IMG/VR virus record: IMGVR_UViG_3300045806_000300
Span: 1-41,249 of that record
Strand: one strand, 5' to 3'
DNA length: 41,249 nucleotides
DNA from: a virus
Position 1 is the first letter of the stretch, and each line of letters begins with the position of its first letter. The notes under the pieces are model-generated. The model searched no databases. It had not been told where the DNA came from and worked only from the letters and a program-made list of their open reading frames with translations. Below are positions 10,572-17,056 of this stretch, in pieces. The position numbers were made by a program, and so were the translations under genes.

Positions 10572-10838
10572 ATGGCCAGAAATCGAGAGCGGCGGCTTGC
10601 ACGCGCGTGCGGCGTCCGCGTCGAGGATATCCAGGAAGTGGAGACAGCGCTCCGAGCGATGCCGATGGAGAAGTTCCTCGACGGGGTCTTCGGCCCCGGC
10701 AAGGCGTTCTACGACCCGGAGGCCGACCTTTGGATCGTGCCCAATGAGCGCCACATCGGTCCAGGGTTCGGCTTCATCGCTGTCCGGCCCGACAAGAGCT
10801 ACTTCACCGGTGTCGTCCCGGTAGGGGCGTTCCAATGA
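10572..10838 (+). CDS. Small hypothetical early protein
   Basis: An 88-aa protein with a good ribosome site (GGAGG) just before ATG 10572. The N-terminus is basic (MARNRERRLARACGVRVEDI); the second half (YDPEADLWIVPNERH, then GFGFIAVRPDKSYFTGVVPV) reads as short beta strands. Its TGA overlaps the ATG of the primase gene (10835-10838), so expression is coupled. No known domain is recognised. A small replication accessory protein would fit the position. Confidence 0.75.
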   Translation: MARNRERRLARACGVRVEDIQEVETALRAMPMEKFLDGVFGPGKAFYDPEADLWIVPNERHIGPGFGFIAVRPDKSYFTGVVPVGAFQ

Positions 10839-13780
10839 TCGACCTCAATCTCATCGATCCCCCGCCGGTCCGCTACGACCTGGACGAAATCGTCCGACGG
10901 CTGCGCGGGACCGCGGAGCGCTGGGTGCCCGACTACTTCCGGCATGGCAGGCGAGATGGCAACACGTGGCGGCTCGCCAACATCCAAGGCGATCCGCCTC
11001 GGCACAACGGCTCCTGCATCATCGCTCTGCGCGGCGAACACGCCGGCGACTGGCACGATTTTGACGGCGGTGATGGTGGCGGTCCACTCAGCACGCTGGA
11101 ACATGGCTGCCGCCGTTCCGGCACCGAGCTGTATGCCCTGGCTGCGGACCTCGTCGCCTGGTCACCCGCGGCGCCGCCACAGCGGCAGGCACCGCCACCG
11201 CCGGCGCCCGAGCGTGACCCTGCGCAGGACGTCGCCTTCGTGCTGGAGCGCGCGGCGCCGATCGCCGGCACGCCAGCGGAAGCCTATCTGCACGGCCGCG
11301 GCCTCACCGCACCGCCGCAGTCTGACCTCGCCTACCACCCCGACCTGGCCGACAGGGAAAGCCGCCGTGGCTATGACGGGCTGGTCGGCATCGTGCGCGA
11401 CCTGGCCGGCCAGATCATCGGACTGCAGCGCATCTACCTCGCGCCGGATTCCGAACAGCCGGACCGGATCGGCAAGGCCCCGATCGCCAGCCCGCGCAAG
11501 ATGCTCGGCCGAATGGCCGGCGGCACGGTACGGCTCGCACCCATCCGCGACGACGGGCTGCTGGCGCTCAGCGAGGGCATCGAGACCGGCCTGGCCGCCA
11601 TGACTGCGTGCCCCGGCGTGCCGGTCTGGGCCGCACTCTCCACCACCGGGCTGGAGCAGGTGCGGCTGCCACCCGAGGCACGGCGCGTGCTGATCCTCGC
11701 CGACCACGACGCTTCCGGCGCCGGGCTGCGCGCCGCAGAGGCCGCAGCTTCCATTCTGCGCGGCCAGGGGCGCGCCGTTGCCATCACGCTGCCGGCCGAG
11801 CCAGGCCAGGACATCAACGACGTGCTGCTGCGGGCCGGGCCCGAGGCGGTGGCGGCGCTGATCGGGCATGGACTTGCCCTGCTATCCCCGGCGCCGGCAC
11901 CGCAGGCCGAACCCGAGACCGGGCGCCACCAGCCATTCGGCTTCGTGGAACCGGCCTCGCAACGGCCCATGCTGCGCGTCGATGAGGGCGACCTCGCCCG
12001 CGCCACACGGCGTGCCTGGCGGGTGGTGCATGCGTCCAACGCCCCGCCCTGGCTGTACCGGCTGGGCGGCGAGCCGACGTGGATCGTGCCCGACGACGAC
12101 GGCCGGCCGGTGACCGCGACCGTCCGCGAGGAACGCCTGCGCCACATGCTGGCCCGACTCGCCGACTGGCGCCGCGCCGGCCCCAACGAGACACTGGTGC
12201 CTGCGCCGCCGCCTACCGGACTGATGAAGTCGCTGGTGGTCACGCCCGATCCCGCGCTGCCGGTGCTCGGCGGCATCGTCACCGCTCCGGTGTTCGGCCG
12301 CGGCGGCGTGCTGCTGACCGAGCCAGGCTACCATCCCGACGCGCGGCTGCTCTACTGCCCCGCGCCCGGCTTCCGGCTGCCGCCCGTGCCGGATCGCCCG
12401 TCGCCGCAGGAGATTGCCGCAGCGCGCACGCTGTTGGTTGACGACCTGCTCGGCGACTTCCCCTTCGTCAGCGAGGCCGAGCGCGCCCACGTGCTCGCGC
12501 TGCTGCTGCTCGGCTTCGTGCGGCCGATGGTGGCGGGGGCGACGCCGCTGCACCTGATCGAGAAGCCCACGCCCGGCACCGGCGCCACGCTGATGGTGGA
12601 TGCCGTCGCGATGATCCTCACCGGCAGCAGCGCCGCCGTCATGGCCGAGGGACGTGACGAGGACGAATGGCGCAAGCGGCTGACCGCCAAGCTGCGCCAG
12701 CTGCCGACACTGCTGCTGATCGACAACCTGCGGCGGGAACTCGACAGCTCGGCGCTCGCCGCCGCGCTCACCGCGCCGTTCTGGGAAGACCGCGTCCTCG
12801 GCGTGTCGGAGATGACGCGGCTGCCGGTGCGCTGCGTGTGGATCGCCACCGGCAACAACCCGTCTTTCTCGAACGAAATCGCCCGTCGCCTGGTGCGCAT
12901 CCGGCTCGATGCACAGACCGACCAGCCCTGGCGGCGCGAGGGCTTCCGCCATCCGGACCTGATGGGCTGGGTGCAGGCGAACCGCGGGGCGCTGGTCGCC
13001 GCCTGCCTCACGCTCTGCCGGGCCTGGATCGTCGCCGGCCGGCCGCGCGGCGAGCGCAGCATCGGTAGCTTCGAGTCCTGGGCACACACCATCGGCGGTA
13101 TCCTCGGCGTGGCCGGCATCGGTGGCTTCCTGGGCAATCTCGATCACGTCATGCAGGCGTCGGACAAGGAGGGCCCCGCCTGGGGCGCCTTCATCCAAAC
13201 CTGGTGGGATCGGTTCGGCAGCGCAGAGGTCAGTGTTTCCGACCTGGTCGGCTTCGCGCAGGCGGCCGAACCGGCCCTGCCAATCGCATCCAAGGCCGAC
13301 CATGGCTTCAAGGTCGCCTTCGGCATGGCGTTGCGCAAGCTGCGCGACCGGGCGTTCCGGATCAGCGATCGCCTGGTGCGCGTGCGCTTCGGCGGCGTGC
13401 AGCACAACGCGCAGCGCTGGCGCCTGGAGCCGGCCCAGGATGCCGCGACTGTCGGCGCGTCTGCCGGACGCCTGGCCAGGCCATCCGAGGGGAGTCTTTT
13501 CGTTTCGGGGGAGTCTTTTTCTGAAAGACTCCCCTCCGAAACCGCCATGGAAATCAACGCCGTTGGGAGTCTGGGGAGTCTGGGGAGTCTTTTCCCTACC
13601 CCCCTGTATGTGCGCACGCATGCGCGTGTGAAAGAAGGGTTGGAAAAAGACTCCCAAGACTCCCAGGACTCCCCAACCCCAGGGAATGCCTCGGTTCCGG
13701 GGTGGGAGTCTTCGGGGGAGTCTTCCAGCGCAGTCCCCCAAAGACTCCCACCCCCCGCCTGGCTGGATGGGGTGCCTTGA
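10835..13780 (+). CDS. Toprim primase fused to helicase-like ATPase
   Basis: A 981-aa two-part replication protein. Residues 1-110 hold a primase-type N-terminus (RWVPDYFRHGRRDGNTWRLA, DWHDFDGGDGGG). Residues about 130-340 are a toprim region: GLVGIVRDLAGQIIGLQRIY, LALSEGIETGLAAM with the catalytic Glu, and LILADHDASGAG with the acidic pair. Residues about 560-700 are an ATPase: TPGTGAT stands at the P-loop (Ala584 in place of the usual Lys), TLLLIDNLRRE is Walker B-like, and VWIATGNNPSFSNEIARRLV supplies sensor and Arg-finger motifs. From about residue 885 the chain is low-complexity, because it is encoded by the GGGAGTC repeat array. It is expected to prime and help unwind phage DNA. Confidence 0.88.
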   Translation: MIDLNLIDPPPVRYDLDEIVRRLRGTAERWVPDYFRHGRRDGNTWRLANIQGDPPRHNGSCIIALRGEHAGDWHDFDGGDGGGPLSTLEHGCRRSGTELYALAADLVAWSPAAPPQRQAPPPPAPERDPAQDVAFVLERAAPIAGTPAEAYLHGRGLTAPPQSDLAYHPDLADRESRRGYDGLVGIVRDLAGQIIGLQRIYLAPDSEQPDRIGKAPIASPRKMLGRMAGGTVRLAPIRDDGLLALSEGIETGLAAMTACPGVPVWAALSTTGLEQVRLPPEARRVLILADHDASGAGLRAAEAAASILRGQGRAVAITLPAEPGQDINDVLLRAGPEAVAALIGHGLALLSPAPAPQAEPETGRHQPFGFVEPASQRPMLRVDEGDLARATRRAWRVVHASNAPPWLYRLGGEPTWIVPDDDGRPVTATVREERLRHMLARLADWRRAGPNETLVPAPPPTGLMKSLVVTPDPALPVLGGIVTAPVFGRGGVLLTEPGYHPDARLLYCPAPGFRLPPVPDRPSPQEIAAARTLLVDDLLGDFPFVSEAERAHVLALLLLGFVRPMVAGATPLHLIEKPTPGTGATLMVDAVAMILTGSSAAVMAEGRDEDEWRKRLTAKLRQLPTLLLIDNLRRELDSSALAAALTAPFWEDRVLGVSEMTRLPVRCVWIATGNNPSFSNEIARRLVRIRLDAQTDQPWRREGFRHPDLMGWVQANRGALVAACLTLCRAWIVAGRPRGERSIGSFESWAHTIGGILGVAGIGGFLGNLDHVMQASDKEGPAWGAFIQTWWDRFGSAEVSVSDLVGFAQAAEPALPIASKADHGFKVAFGMALRKLRDRAFRISDRLVRVRFGGVQHNAQRWRLEPAQDAATVGASAGRLARPSEGSLFVSGESFSERLPSETAMEINAVGSLGSLGSLFPTPLYVRTHARVKEGLEKDSQDSQDSPTPGNASVPGWESSGESSSAVPQRLPPPAWLDGVP
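13490..13749. repeat. Array of 12 GGGAGTC/GACTCCC heptamers, candidate origin
   Basis: Forward GGGAGTC begins at 13490, 13509, 13565, 13574, 13583, 13704 and 13716; reverse GACTCCC begins at 13527, 13649, 13658, 13667 and 13743. Two triplets have an exact 9-bp period (13565-13589 forward, 13649-13673 reverse) and face each other as arms of an inverted repeat (13563-13595 and 13642-13676) around a 46-nt centre that contains alternating purine/pyrimidine TGTGCGCACGCATGCGCGTG. A third inverted pair is 13702-13721 with 13732-13751 (18 of 20 positions). I saw no other copy elsewhere. Iteron-like repeats inside a primase gene suggest a replication origin; this is inference. Confidence 0.85.
13508..13534. 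repeat. Perfect 11-bp hairpin within the heptamer array
   Basis: GGGGAGTCTTT (13508-13518), loop TTCTG (13519-13523), AAAGACTCCCC (13524-13534). The stem is perfect and each arm contains one heptamer. It lies inside the primase reading frame, so it is not simply a terminator of that gene; it could be a protein-binding palindrome or a nick/initiation structure. Confidence 0.75.
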
Positions 13781-13908
13781 TGCGCCCGCCCGCGACTGGG
13801 CCTCCTGGCCTGCCAACACACCGAGCCGGACGACGACGGCGAGCTCCGCCAAGAACCGCGCCATCGCCGCCCGCACCAGGACCCAGCCCCCCGTTCAGGA
13901 GACCACCC

Positions 13909-14451
13909 ATGGCATTCGCGACTCTGATCGCGCCGGCGCCGGACGCAAGTCGCGCCCAGTTCACGCCGCCGCTGACCATCACGGCCGGCACCGTGCTGGC
14001 GCTCGACCTCGGCACCACGACCGGCTGGGCGCTGCTCACCGGCGATGGCCGGATTACCTCCGGCACCATCAGCTTCAAGCCGACCAGGTTCGAGGGCGGC
14101 GGCATGCGCTACCTGCGCTTTCGCCGCTGGCTGGCCGAGATCGCCGACCTGGCCGGCGGCATCGGGCGCATCGCCTTCGAGGAGGTCCGCTCCCATGCCG
14201 GCACCGACGCGGCGCACGTTCACGGCGCGTTCCTTGGCATGCTCACGGCGTGGTGCGAGGAGCGCGCCGTCCCCTACGAGGGCGTCCCCGTCGCCACCAT
14301 CAAGCGGTTCGCCACCGGCAAGGGCAATGCCGGCAAGGAGGCAGTGATCGCCGCCATGCAGGCCCGCGGCTTCGCACCGGCGGACGACAACGAGGCCGAC
14401 GCCCTGGCCCTGCTGCTCTGGGCCACCGAATCGCAGGGAGGTGTCCAGTGA
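13909..14451 (+). CDS. RuvC-like Holliday junction resolvase
   Basis: A 180-aa RNase H-fold nuclease of the RuvC type. The catalytic acids are visible: LALDLGTTTGWAL (Asp, about residue 30), IAFEEVRSH (Glu), and DDNEADALALLLWA near the C-terminus with the Asp pair. The central HVHGAFLGMLTAWCEE and VPVATIKRFATGKGNAGKEA match the RuvC core, the latter a typical KxxxTGxGxAxK segment. ATG 13909 has CAGGAGA upstream; reading further upstream would enter the repeat array in a different frame. It probably resolves branched phage DNA before packaging. Its stop overlaps the GTG of the next gene. Confidence 0.88.
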   Translation: MAFATLIAPAPDASRAQFTPPLTITAGTVLALDLGTTTGWALLTGDGRITSGTISFKPTRFEGGGMRYLRFRRWLAEIADLAGGIGRIAFEEVRSHAGTDAAHVHGAFLGMLTAWCEERAVPYEGVPVATIKRFATGKGNAGKEAVIAAMQARGFAPADDNEADALALLLWATESQGGVQ

Positions 14452-15571: not shown

Positions 15572-17056
15572 ATGGTGCCGATGACGCTTCCCTGGATGGC
15601 AGCGAAGATCGTGCTGCGCCCGGCAGCGGAACTGCGTCGCCATGCCGGCAACGCCCGCCTGCACTCGGCGGAGCAGCTGGAGCAGATCAAGGCCAGCATG
15701 CTTGCCTTCGGCTTCACCAACCCGCTGCTGGTCGACGAGGACGGCGTGCTGATCGCCGGCCATGGTCGGCTGGAAGCGGCGCTGGCGCTCGGCATCGCCA
15801 AGGTGCCGGTGATCGTGCTGCGGCACCTGTCGGCTTCGCAGAAGGATGCGCTGCGGCTGGCCGACAACCGCATCGCCGAGAACGCCACCTGGGACCAGGC
15901 GCTGCTGCGCGATGCGCTGGCCGGCTTGCAGGAGGCGGGCGAGATCGACTTCCTGGCCATCGGATTCTCGCGCGACGAGATCAGCACCATCCTGGCCGCG
16001 GCCGAGCAAGCCGTCGCCGCGCCCGAGTCGCGGGACGAGGAGAGCGCTGACGAGGGTGCATCGGGCGGTGTCAATGAGGACTCTGCTGACGCCGCCGACA
16101 GTGATGCCGAAGACCCCGCCGACGAAGCGCCGGAGCCGCCGCGCGCCGCCGTCACCCGCCCCGGCGATCTGTGGCTGCTCGGGCCGCACCGTCTGCTGTG
16201 CGGCGATGCCACCGACGCGGCCACGGTCGCGCGCGTCATGGGCGGCGACCGAGCGGCGCTGCTGGTGACCAGCCCGCCGTACGGGAATCAGCGGGACTAC
16301 ACCACCGGCGGTGTGGCCGATTGGGATGCGTTGATGCATGGCGCGTGCTCGCACCTGTCCGCCGCCATGGCCGACGACGGCCAGGCGCTGGTGAACCTGG
16401 GCCTGATCCACCGCGATGGCGAATGGATGCCGTATTGGCTCGGCTGGCTGGACTGGATGCGAGCGCAAGGCTGGCGCCGGTTCGGGCTTTACGTTTGGGA
16501 TCAGGGGCCGGGCCTGCCGGGCGACTGGAACGGCCGCCTGGCGCCGTCGTTCGAGTTCATCTTCCACTTCAACCGCACCGCGCGGCAGGCGAACAAGATC
16601 GTCCCCTGTCGCTGGGCAGGTCACGTCAATGCCGAGAAAGGCGGGCTGCGCGCCAAGGACGGCACGGTCGGCACCTGGACCCATGCCGGCCAGGGCGTGC
16701 AGGACACCCGCATCCCGGACAACGTGCTGCGCATCACCCGCCACAAGGCCCGCGGCATCGAGACCGAGCACCCGGCGGTGTTCCCGGTGGCGCTGCCCGC
16801 GTTCCTGATGGAGGCGTATTCCGACACCGGCGCCGTAGTCTACGAGCCGTTCTCCGGCAGCGGCACGACCATCCTGGCCGGGCAACGCACTGGCCGGCTG
16901 GTGCGCGCGATCGAGCTTGCCCCGTCCTATGTCGACCTGGCGATCGCGCGCTGGCGCACGCTGCACCCGGACCTGTCGGTCACGCTCGACGGCGACGGGC
17001 GTAGCTACGACGCGGTGGCCGCCGAGCGCACGGAGGGGCTGGCCGATGCAGCATGA
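15572..17056 (+). CDS. ParB-domain DNA methyltransferase (TSPPY type)
   Basis: A 494-aa protein with a ParB/Srx-like N-terminal domain (about residues 10-125: RRHAGNARLHSAEQLEQIKA, LVDEDGVLIAGHGRLEAALA, DALRLADNRIAENATWDQ), an acidic linker (about 150-190, rich in Glu and Asp), and a SAM-dependent DNA methyltransferase domain. The catalytic motif is TSPPYG at about residue 233 and the SAM motif VVYEPFSGSGTTILAGQRTG comes after it, the beta-class order for N4-cytosine or N6-adenine methylation. Such phage enzymes usually protect phage DNA from host restriction or change regulation. The start may be at the first or fourth codon, both ATG. Confidence 0.9.
   Translation: MVPMTLPWMAAKIVLRPAAELRRHAGNARLHSAEQLEQIKASMLAFGFTNPLLVDEDGVLIAGHGRLEAALALGIAKVPVIVLRHLSASQKDALRLADNRIAENATWDQALLRDALAGLQEAGEIDFLAIGFSRDEISTILAAAEQAVAAPESRDEESADEGASGGVNEDSADAADSDAEDPADEAPEPPRAAVTRPGDLWLLGPHRLLCGDATDAATVARVMGGDRAALLVTSPPYGNQRDYTTGGVADWDALMHGACSHLSAAMADDGQALVNLGLIHRDGEWMPYWLGWLDWMRAQGWRRFGLYVWDQGPGLPGDWNGRLAPSFEFIFHFNRTARQANKIVPCRWAGHVNAEKGGLRAKDGTVGTWTHAGQGVQDTRIPDNVLRITRHKARGIETEHPAVFPVALPAFLMEAYSDTGAVVYEPFSGSGTTILAGQRTGRLVRAIELAPSYVDLAIARWRTLHPDLSVTLDGDGRSYDAVAAERTEGLADAA

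Follow-up and report, generated by a model that had tools for sequence, protein, structure and literature searches.

SaPI Rep and SCCmec Cch2 are helicases that load themselves and bind, through their C-terminal domain, short iterons located just downstream of the gene (PMC7581432). In lambda, the iterons lie inside the gene for O itself (PMC6022878). Lambdoid phages also differ in their O specificities. In Vibrio cholerae PLE, the DNA-binding domain of the RepA_N initiator and the origin co-vary and are exchanged as a module, and some types of origin are targeted by an origin-directed phage nuclease (PMC8263062). ORF904 of the Sulfolobus plasmid pRN1 is a multifunctional protein with primase activity, and a stem-loop origin of about 100 bp is located just 3′ of its gene (PMC4234260). 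In satellite phage P4, the crr region lies directly 3′ of the gene for alpha, likewise a primase-helicase, and contains 8-bp repeats in both orientations, some of them spaced by 9 bp (NC_001609).

Here we analyse a viral record (IMG/VR IMGVR_UViG_3300045806_000300; the window, 41,249 bp) in which a repeat array lies within the last 100 codons of a 981-codon primase-helicase gene (Table 1). The array is probably an initiator-binding, cis-acting site inside the initiator's own gene, and most likely a replication origin; DNA binding and origin activity are both inferred. A search of the literature, limited to open-licence papers, returned no description of this primase-helicase and array family, which appears to be undescribed and to have an unusually readable recognition code.

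By analogy, the family probably operates in the manner of P4 alpha/crr, SaPI Rep/ori and lambda O/ori, yet is separate from them. It has the P4-alpha-type combination of primase, helicase and C-terminal winged helix in a single protein and, as in P4, the gene is accompanied by short repeats that run in both directions. The first-pass annotation had named no described counterpart for the repeat motif, and this must be corrected: the type-1 ori repeats of P4, beside the alpha primase gene, are a functional counterpart and, in their GGTGAACA-like reading on one strand, are close to the GTGAACNT units of this family. P4 differs in that crr and ori lie outside the alpha gene, in two places, and its clusters contain fewer units, without facing triplets or a purine/pyrimidine spacer. 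We do not file these phages as P4 members, since neither hmmsearch nor hhalign with the family profile detected homology between the DNA-binding domain and P4 alpha. No matched alleles with a residue–base code were found for P4 in the open-licence literature searched.

With SaPI Rep, SaPI5 and Cch2 the family shares the SaPI Rep/D5-class helicase fold. The further likeness would be a helicase that loads itself and reads short iterons where its gene ends; for this family the reading is strongly implied by co-variation, and self-loading is inferred by analogy. Those systems belong to Gram-positive islands, use different iterons and have an origin that comes after the gene, not within it. With lambda O, the shared trait is that the iterons are internal to the initiator gene, as 13490–13749 falls within the coding sequence 10835–13780. 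The other lambda O trait, a non-helicase initiator beside an AT-rich region, is absent, as the protein here has its own helicase half and the lowest GC is 45% over 40 bp; the lambda origin is mid-gene, with 18-bp iterons beside the AT-rich region. PLE differs in its RepA_N initiator, its iterons of about 30 bp, its two origin groups only and the absence of a residue–base code. pRN1 is an archaeal plasmid with a noncoding stem-loop and, in the passages of PMC4234260 considered, no comparable iteron array.

Repeat array in the window phage

The heptamer GGGAGTC occurs 12 times in the whole record, with seven forward copies (starting at 13490, 13509, 13565, 13574, 13583, 13704 and 13716) and five reverse copies (13527, 13649, 13658, 13667 and 13743), and none outside the array. 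Dinucleotide shuffles give 6.2 copies per 41 kb, or about 0.04 per 260 bp. The first-pass annotation had reported 12 clustered heptamers (seven forward, five reverse), two facing triplets with a 9-bp period, a perfect 11-bp hairpin and, by eye, no copy elsewhere; all of these held on exact counting, and the hairpin arms, GGGGAGTCTTT and AAAGACTCCCC, are present in the sequence. Our analysis adds that the true repeat unit is 8 bp (GGGAGTCT), not the heptamer, and that a 26-bp tract of alternating purines and pyrimidines separates the triplets. This tract may be prone to form Z-DNA or a cruciform. As single-stranded DNA, the central 117 nt folds at −37.5 kcal/mol, compared with −15.9 for shuffles (z −7.4).

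Table 1. Features of the primase-helicase locus in the window (F, forward unit; R, reverse unit)
Feature	Position	Strand	Basis
Primase-helicase, 981 aa, tail contains the array	10835..13780	+	Pfam, phrog and fold matches
Part coding for the winged-helix domain, aa 780–866, predicted iteron reader	13172..13432	+	Model and identity pattern
Recognition helix, aa 822–836, putative specificity residues H823, V827, M831	13298..13342	+	Co-variation, model
Wing tip, aa 857–859 (H857, N858, A859)	13403..13411	+	Co-variation; turn between strands 846–856 and 859–866
Whole iteron array, 12 units	13490..13749	none	Exact count; layout common to 179 non-redundant loci
Left outer group, F F R, with the 11-bp hairpin	13490..13533	none	
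Central forward triplet of GGGAGTCT, 9-bp period	13565..13590	+	
Alternating purine/pyrimidine tract, 26 bp, perfect, separating the triplets	13605..13630	none	
Central reverse triplet, 9-bp period	13648..13673	−	
Right outer group, units F F R	13704..13749	none	
Conserved C-terminal PAWLDGVP and stop; TGATG overlap with the next start codon	13754..13780	+	
RuvC-like resolvase, next gene, domain from 13918	13780..14451	+	phrog_159, 1.8e-31

Because the units fall in two reading frames and on both strands, the repeat is a feature of the DNA and not a peptide repeat. No classical long AT-rich unwinding element was found near the array, where the lowest GC content over 40 bp is 45% (69.5% for the record overall); the left outer group contains a 40-mer that is among the most AT-rich in the record. 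The exact GGGAGTC count identified no second array elsewhere in the 41,249-bp record.

The primase half of the protein matches Pfam DUF7146 (2.5e-25) and Toprim_3 (2e-19), and the protein matches phrog_10537/510. The helicase half is D5/SF3-like, and its model resembles the SaPI5 primase-helicase, poxvirus D5/E5, NrS-1 and SCCmec Cch. The top structural match is the SaPI5 primase-helicase (7ola; Z 12.4, 5.6 Å rmsd over 305 residues), and the match to the SaPI Rep/D5 class is moderate and at the level of fold only. An AlphaFold2 model of the winged helix (pLDDT 85) has helices at 780–794, 801–809 and 822–836 and strands at 840–843, 846–856 and 859–866. Sequence-based searches against solved structures returned no relevant match. 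Fold matches of the winged helix to Z-DNA-binding Zalpha domains do not support a role in Z-DNA binding, as they are weak (Z 5.6–6.0) and tied with many ordinary winged helices.

Conservation of the array in relatives

A first protein search yielded 37 viral loci, to which bacterial genomes and viral contigs were then added. The final set contains 340 loci with the C-terminal domain, of which 328 have a readable tail and 179 are non-redundant; loci from public contigs are non-independent samples. Relatives are alphaproteobacterial phages and prophages, with record titles that include Roseomonas, Elioraea, Paracoccus, Jannaschia, Shimia and Bauldia. The array is present at the same location in 328 of 328 readable tails (319 by automatic caller, 9 by eye), with a median of 13 units and the common layout FFR, FFF, alternating purine/pyrimidine spacer, RRR, FFR, or close variants of it. 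The alternating run in the spacer has a median length of 26 bp (163 loci), compared with a shuffled mean of 6.2. Counting GGGAGTC itself in relatives finds almost none, and this count is misleading, because the motif has at least 25 alleles. The near-absence of GGGAGTC could suggest that relatives have lost the array; this is rejected, as the arrays are present, built from a changed unit.

No obvious array was found in the part searched of distant homologues in Ruegeria and Actinoplanes phages. A blind scan of viral contigs for GGGAGTCNNGGGAGTC returned 119 stretches, mostly with a single match each. One tail (L232) seems to contain two consecutive arrays of related but different units. In the 60-kb genome of a virus of Methanosarcinales (L477, BK063673.1), 8 of 8 copies of TGCGGGTAT lie at 883–1218 of the record, directly 3′ of a phrog_10537 primase-helicase gene, a similar arrangement with archaeal hosts.

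An alternative explanation is that the array has no DNA function, being a protein-level repeat or a mutational by-product of slippage or gene conversion in an unconstrained tail. In its favour, the tail is translated and repeat-rich, and arrays homogenize. Against it, in 139 of the 179 loci the units are spread over both strands and at least two reading frames, and they change together with specific residues of a DNA-binding domain. Six loci (L141, L226, L309, L365, L391 and L460) have an early stop in the primase tail that leaves much of the array noncoding, and tails cut in this way, such as that of L141, keep the units. The translated tail seems to be dispensable as protein. We consider the by-product explanation the least likely of those that we examined.

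Unit versions

The 8-bp unit changes as a whole between phages, as in GGGAGTCT, GGGGGACT, GTGAACCT, GGGAACGT and others; when placed in one register, the units follow the pattern G[G/T]G NNNN T. The first 135 non-redundant loci gave 26 version calls and the full set of 179 gave 27; because a few calls derive from mixed arrays, the safe count is at least 25. Copies agree within most arrays. The tails of L474, L223, L446 and L236 each have two unit versions in one array, and these could represent concerted evolution midway. Avoidance of a phage's own unit outside the array is weak (29 observed, 40 expected).

The winged helix tracks the unit

We compared pairs of phages with helicase halves at least 95% identical, measuring the C-terminal domain over residues 795–864. 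Identity of this domain is 0.96 when the unit is shared and 0.69 when the units differ; the corresponding values for the Toprim half are 0.93 and 0.88. Only in the winged helix does identity discriminate between phages with the same motif and phages with different ones. What is exchanged is a narrow segment, and the flanks on either side stay alike.

The array could instead be read by another phage or host protein, such as a ParB-like methyltransferase, terminase or recombination protein, for example as a partition or packaging site. The genes just downstream give this reading some support: the RuvC-like gene follows directly, and a fusion of a ParB-like domain with an N4/N6 DNA methyltransferase is encoded further on, at window positions 15572–17056. 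Against it, the 11 neighbour genes with enough data, which include Cas4-like, Dda-like, DUF6511, RuvC-like and ParB-methyltransferase genes, reach only background (AUC 0.63–0.75; 0.69 for the RuvC-like gene), whereas the winged helix reaches 0.95, and residues of the primase-helicase match the unit bases nearly one-to-one. The terminase gene, 6 kb away, was outside the pair test. We consider a reader other than the primase-helicase very unlikely. As its own domain tracks the unit and the neighbours remain at background, the reader is most likely the primase-helicase itself. That its winged helix reads the units is a well-supported inference from sequence alone, without binding data.

A residue–base code

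Mutual information was calculated between every variable protein column (n = 555) and every variable base of the unit. The top columns for bases 2, 4, 5, 6 and 7 are 857, 859, 823, 827 and 831, all in the winged helix, with normalized values of 0.82 for base 2 and column 857 and 0.94 for base 4 and column 859 (runner-up column for base 4, 0.26). At base 2, His857 occurs with G and Gln, Arg or Asn with T. At base 4, Ala859 occurs with A, Ser, Thr or Val with G, and Leu with T. Base 5 is A with Arg or Lys at 823 and G with His, Gln or Asn. Thr827 occurs mostly with C at base 6 and Ile or Val with T, G or A, and this base requires more than one residue. At base 7, Lys831 occurs mostly with G, Met, Ile or Ala with C, and Arg mostly with A. 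Residues 823, 827 and 831 are spaced i, i+4 and i+8, on the same face of a helix and in an order parallel to the bases. The AlphaFold2 model, which was built after the code, places them on the third helix and residues 857–858 at the wing tip. The third helix and the wing tip are where winged helices typically contact DNA.

On a tree built without the winged helix, unit and residue class change on the same branch without exception for bases 4 (18/18) and 5 (17/17); for bases 2 and 7 they do so in 24/26 and 23/28 cases, respectively. The expectation is 0.9–2.4 shared branches, and the best of 217–301 control columns reaches 6–9. Residue classes were chosen after seeing the data, which held-out prediction only partly offsets. 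When the code was frozen on the first 135 loci and applied to 28 unseen domains, it was correct for base 2 in 27 of 27, for bases 4 and 5 in 26 of 28 each, for base 6 in 24 of 28 and for base 7 in 26 of 26. Copying the unit of the nearest helicase relative was correct in 20, 25, 24, 23 and 24 cases for bases 2, 4, 5, 6 and 7, respectively. Two of the loci that failed (L382 and L319) are register ties or alternative calls, and two further unseen sequences were fully predicted by the frozen code (2 of 2).

Because reader and array are physically linked, part of this correlation is joint transfer. Linkage does not explain a fixed match of residue to base across lineages that share only 60–65% of the helicase half. 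Close relatives illustrate the association. The window phage shares its unit with L145, and their domains are nearly identical; L160, which is about as close to the window phage in the rest of the protein as L145 is (88% overall against 87%), has a different domain and the unit GGGGGACT. L190 and L179 form a natural half-swap, in which the recognition helix and bases 5–8 are common and the wing and bases 2 and 4 differ. In the domain, only T819P and I827T distinguish L446 from L447; their units differ mainly by T to C at base 6. All three of L446, L474 and L223 have Ile827 and arrays mixed for C and T at base 6, possibly transitions in progress.

A separate group of loci (L211, L212, L422–424, L433 and L504) has TGTGAGG-type units and a divergent recognition helix, TAELGRGISRM. 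In the most natural register, these arrays violate the base-4 rule.

Origin or regulatory site

The array, its conservation, the concerted change of the unit, the residue–base co-variation and the narrow region of joint exchange are seen in the sequences; physical binding, ring loading, melting and origin activity are inferred only. In the mechanism that we propose, the C-terminal winged helix would bind each 8-bp unit of the form G[G/T]G NNNN T, with residues 823, 827 and 831 of the recognition helix reading bases 5, 6 and 7 and wing-tip residues 857 and 859 reading bases 2 and 4. Copies bound to the facing triplets and flanking groups would load two opposed helicase rings around the alternating spacer, the DNA would open in the spacer or in the AT-rich left flank, and priming at both forks would fall to the attached primase half. 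The array would then be either the origin or a P4-crr-like part of the origin, in the 3′ end of the initiator gene. As reader and sites adjoin, they would diverge and move between phages as one cassette.

Four lines of inference suggest an origin. By analogy, the precedents are SaPI Rep, Cch2, lambda O, pRN1 and P4 crr. Facing triplets around a structured spacer could suit two oppositely loaded helicases, and the presence within the array of one of the record's most AT-rich 40-mers is a further, tentative pointer. In each of the 95 loci tested, GC skew changes sign at the array, turning from negative to positive. At third codon positions, the skew of the RuvC gene runs the opposite way, and the test is mixed. 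Because the loci share genes and RuvC behaves oppositely, we regard the shift as only suggestive. Of the two functional proposals in the first-pass annotation, an iteron-like array bound by a replication protein is thus strongly supported by the co-variation of winged helix and repeat, without binding data, and a phage origin is inferred from precedent and the suggestive skew, not shown.

Alternatively, the primase-helicase may bind the array for regulation, to autoregulate the operon or to control copy number by handcuffing of arrays; the true origin would then be at another site, much as P4 has ori apart from crr. The array lies within an operon and its arms face each other, and in the closest layout, that of P4, crr is needed in cis and is distinct from ori. 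Against this reading, the window record has no second array, a 3′-terminal site is an odd position for an operator, and P4 crr is itself required for replication according to its annotation. We consider regulation alone unlikely, although less so than a different reader or a by-product, and favour the origin.

Implications

It has long been asked how an initiator and its origin can acquire a new specificity and remain functional, usually with only a few alleles to study. Here there are dozens of natural alleles, including mixed arrays, half-swaps and near single-residue switches. A bolder reading, for which we see as much reason for doubt as for belief, is that the family is a natural library of at least 25 initiator–origin pairs with a simple code of about one amino acid per base, diversifying by point change and cassette exchange under pressure against cross-talk with co-resident prophages or against origin-targeting antagonists. 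Units differ in three pairs of co-resident prophages and match in two; because they do not always differ, the incompatibility idea is unproven.

The family offers a route to candidate origins in unannotated alphaproteobacterial prophages and, as a similar arrangement was seen once, possibly in archaeal viruses. Both partners lie within about 1 kb of DNA, so that the path of co-evolution and the winged-helix code are directly testable. The letters of the repeat and a few amino acids change together, and the phages thereby provide a natural table of matched pairs of protein and putative origin.
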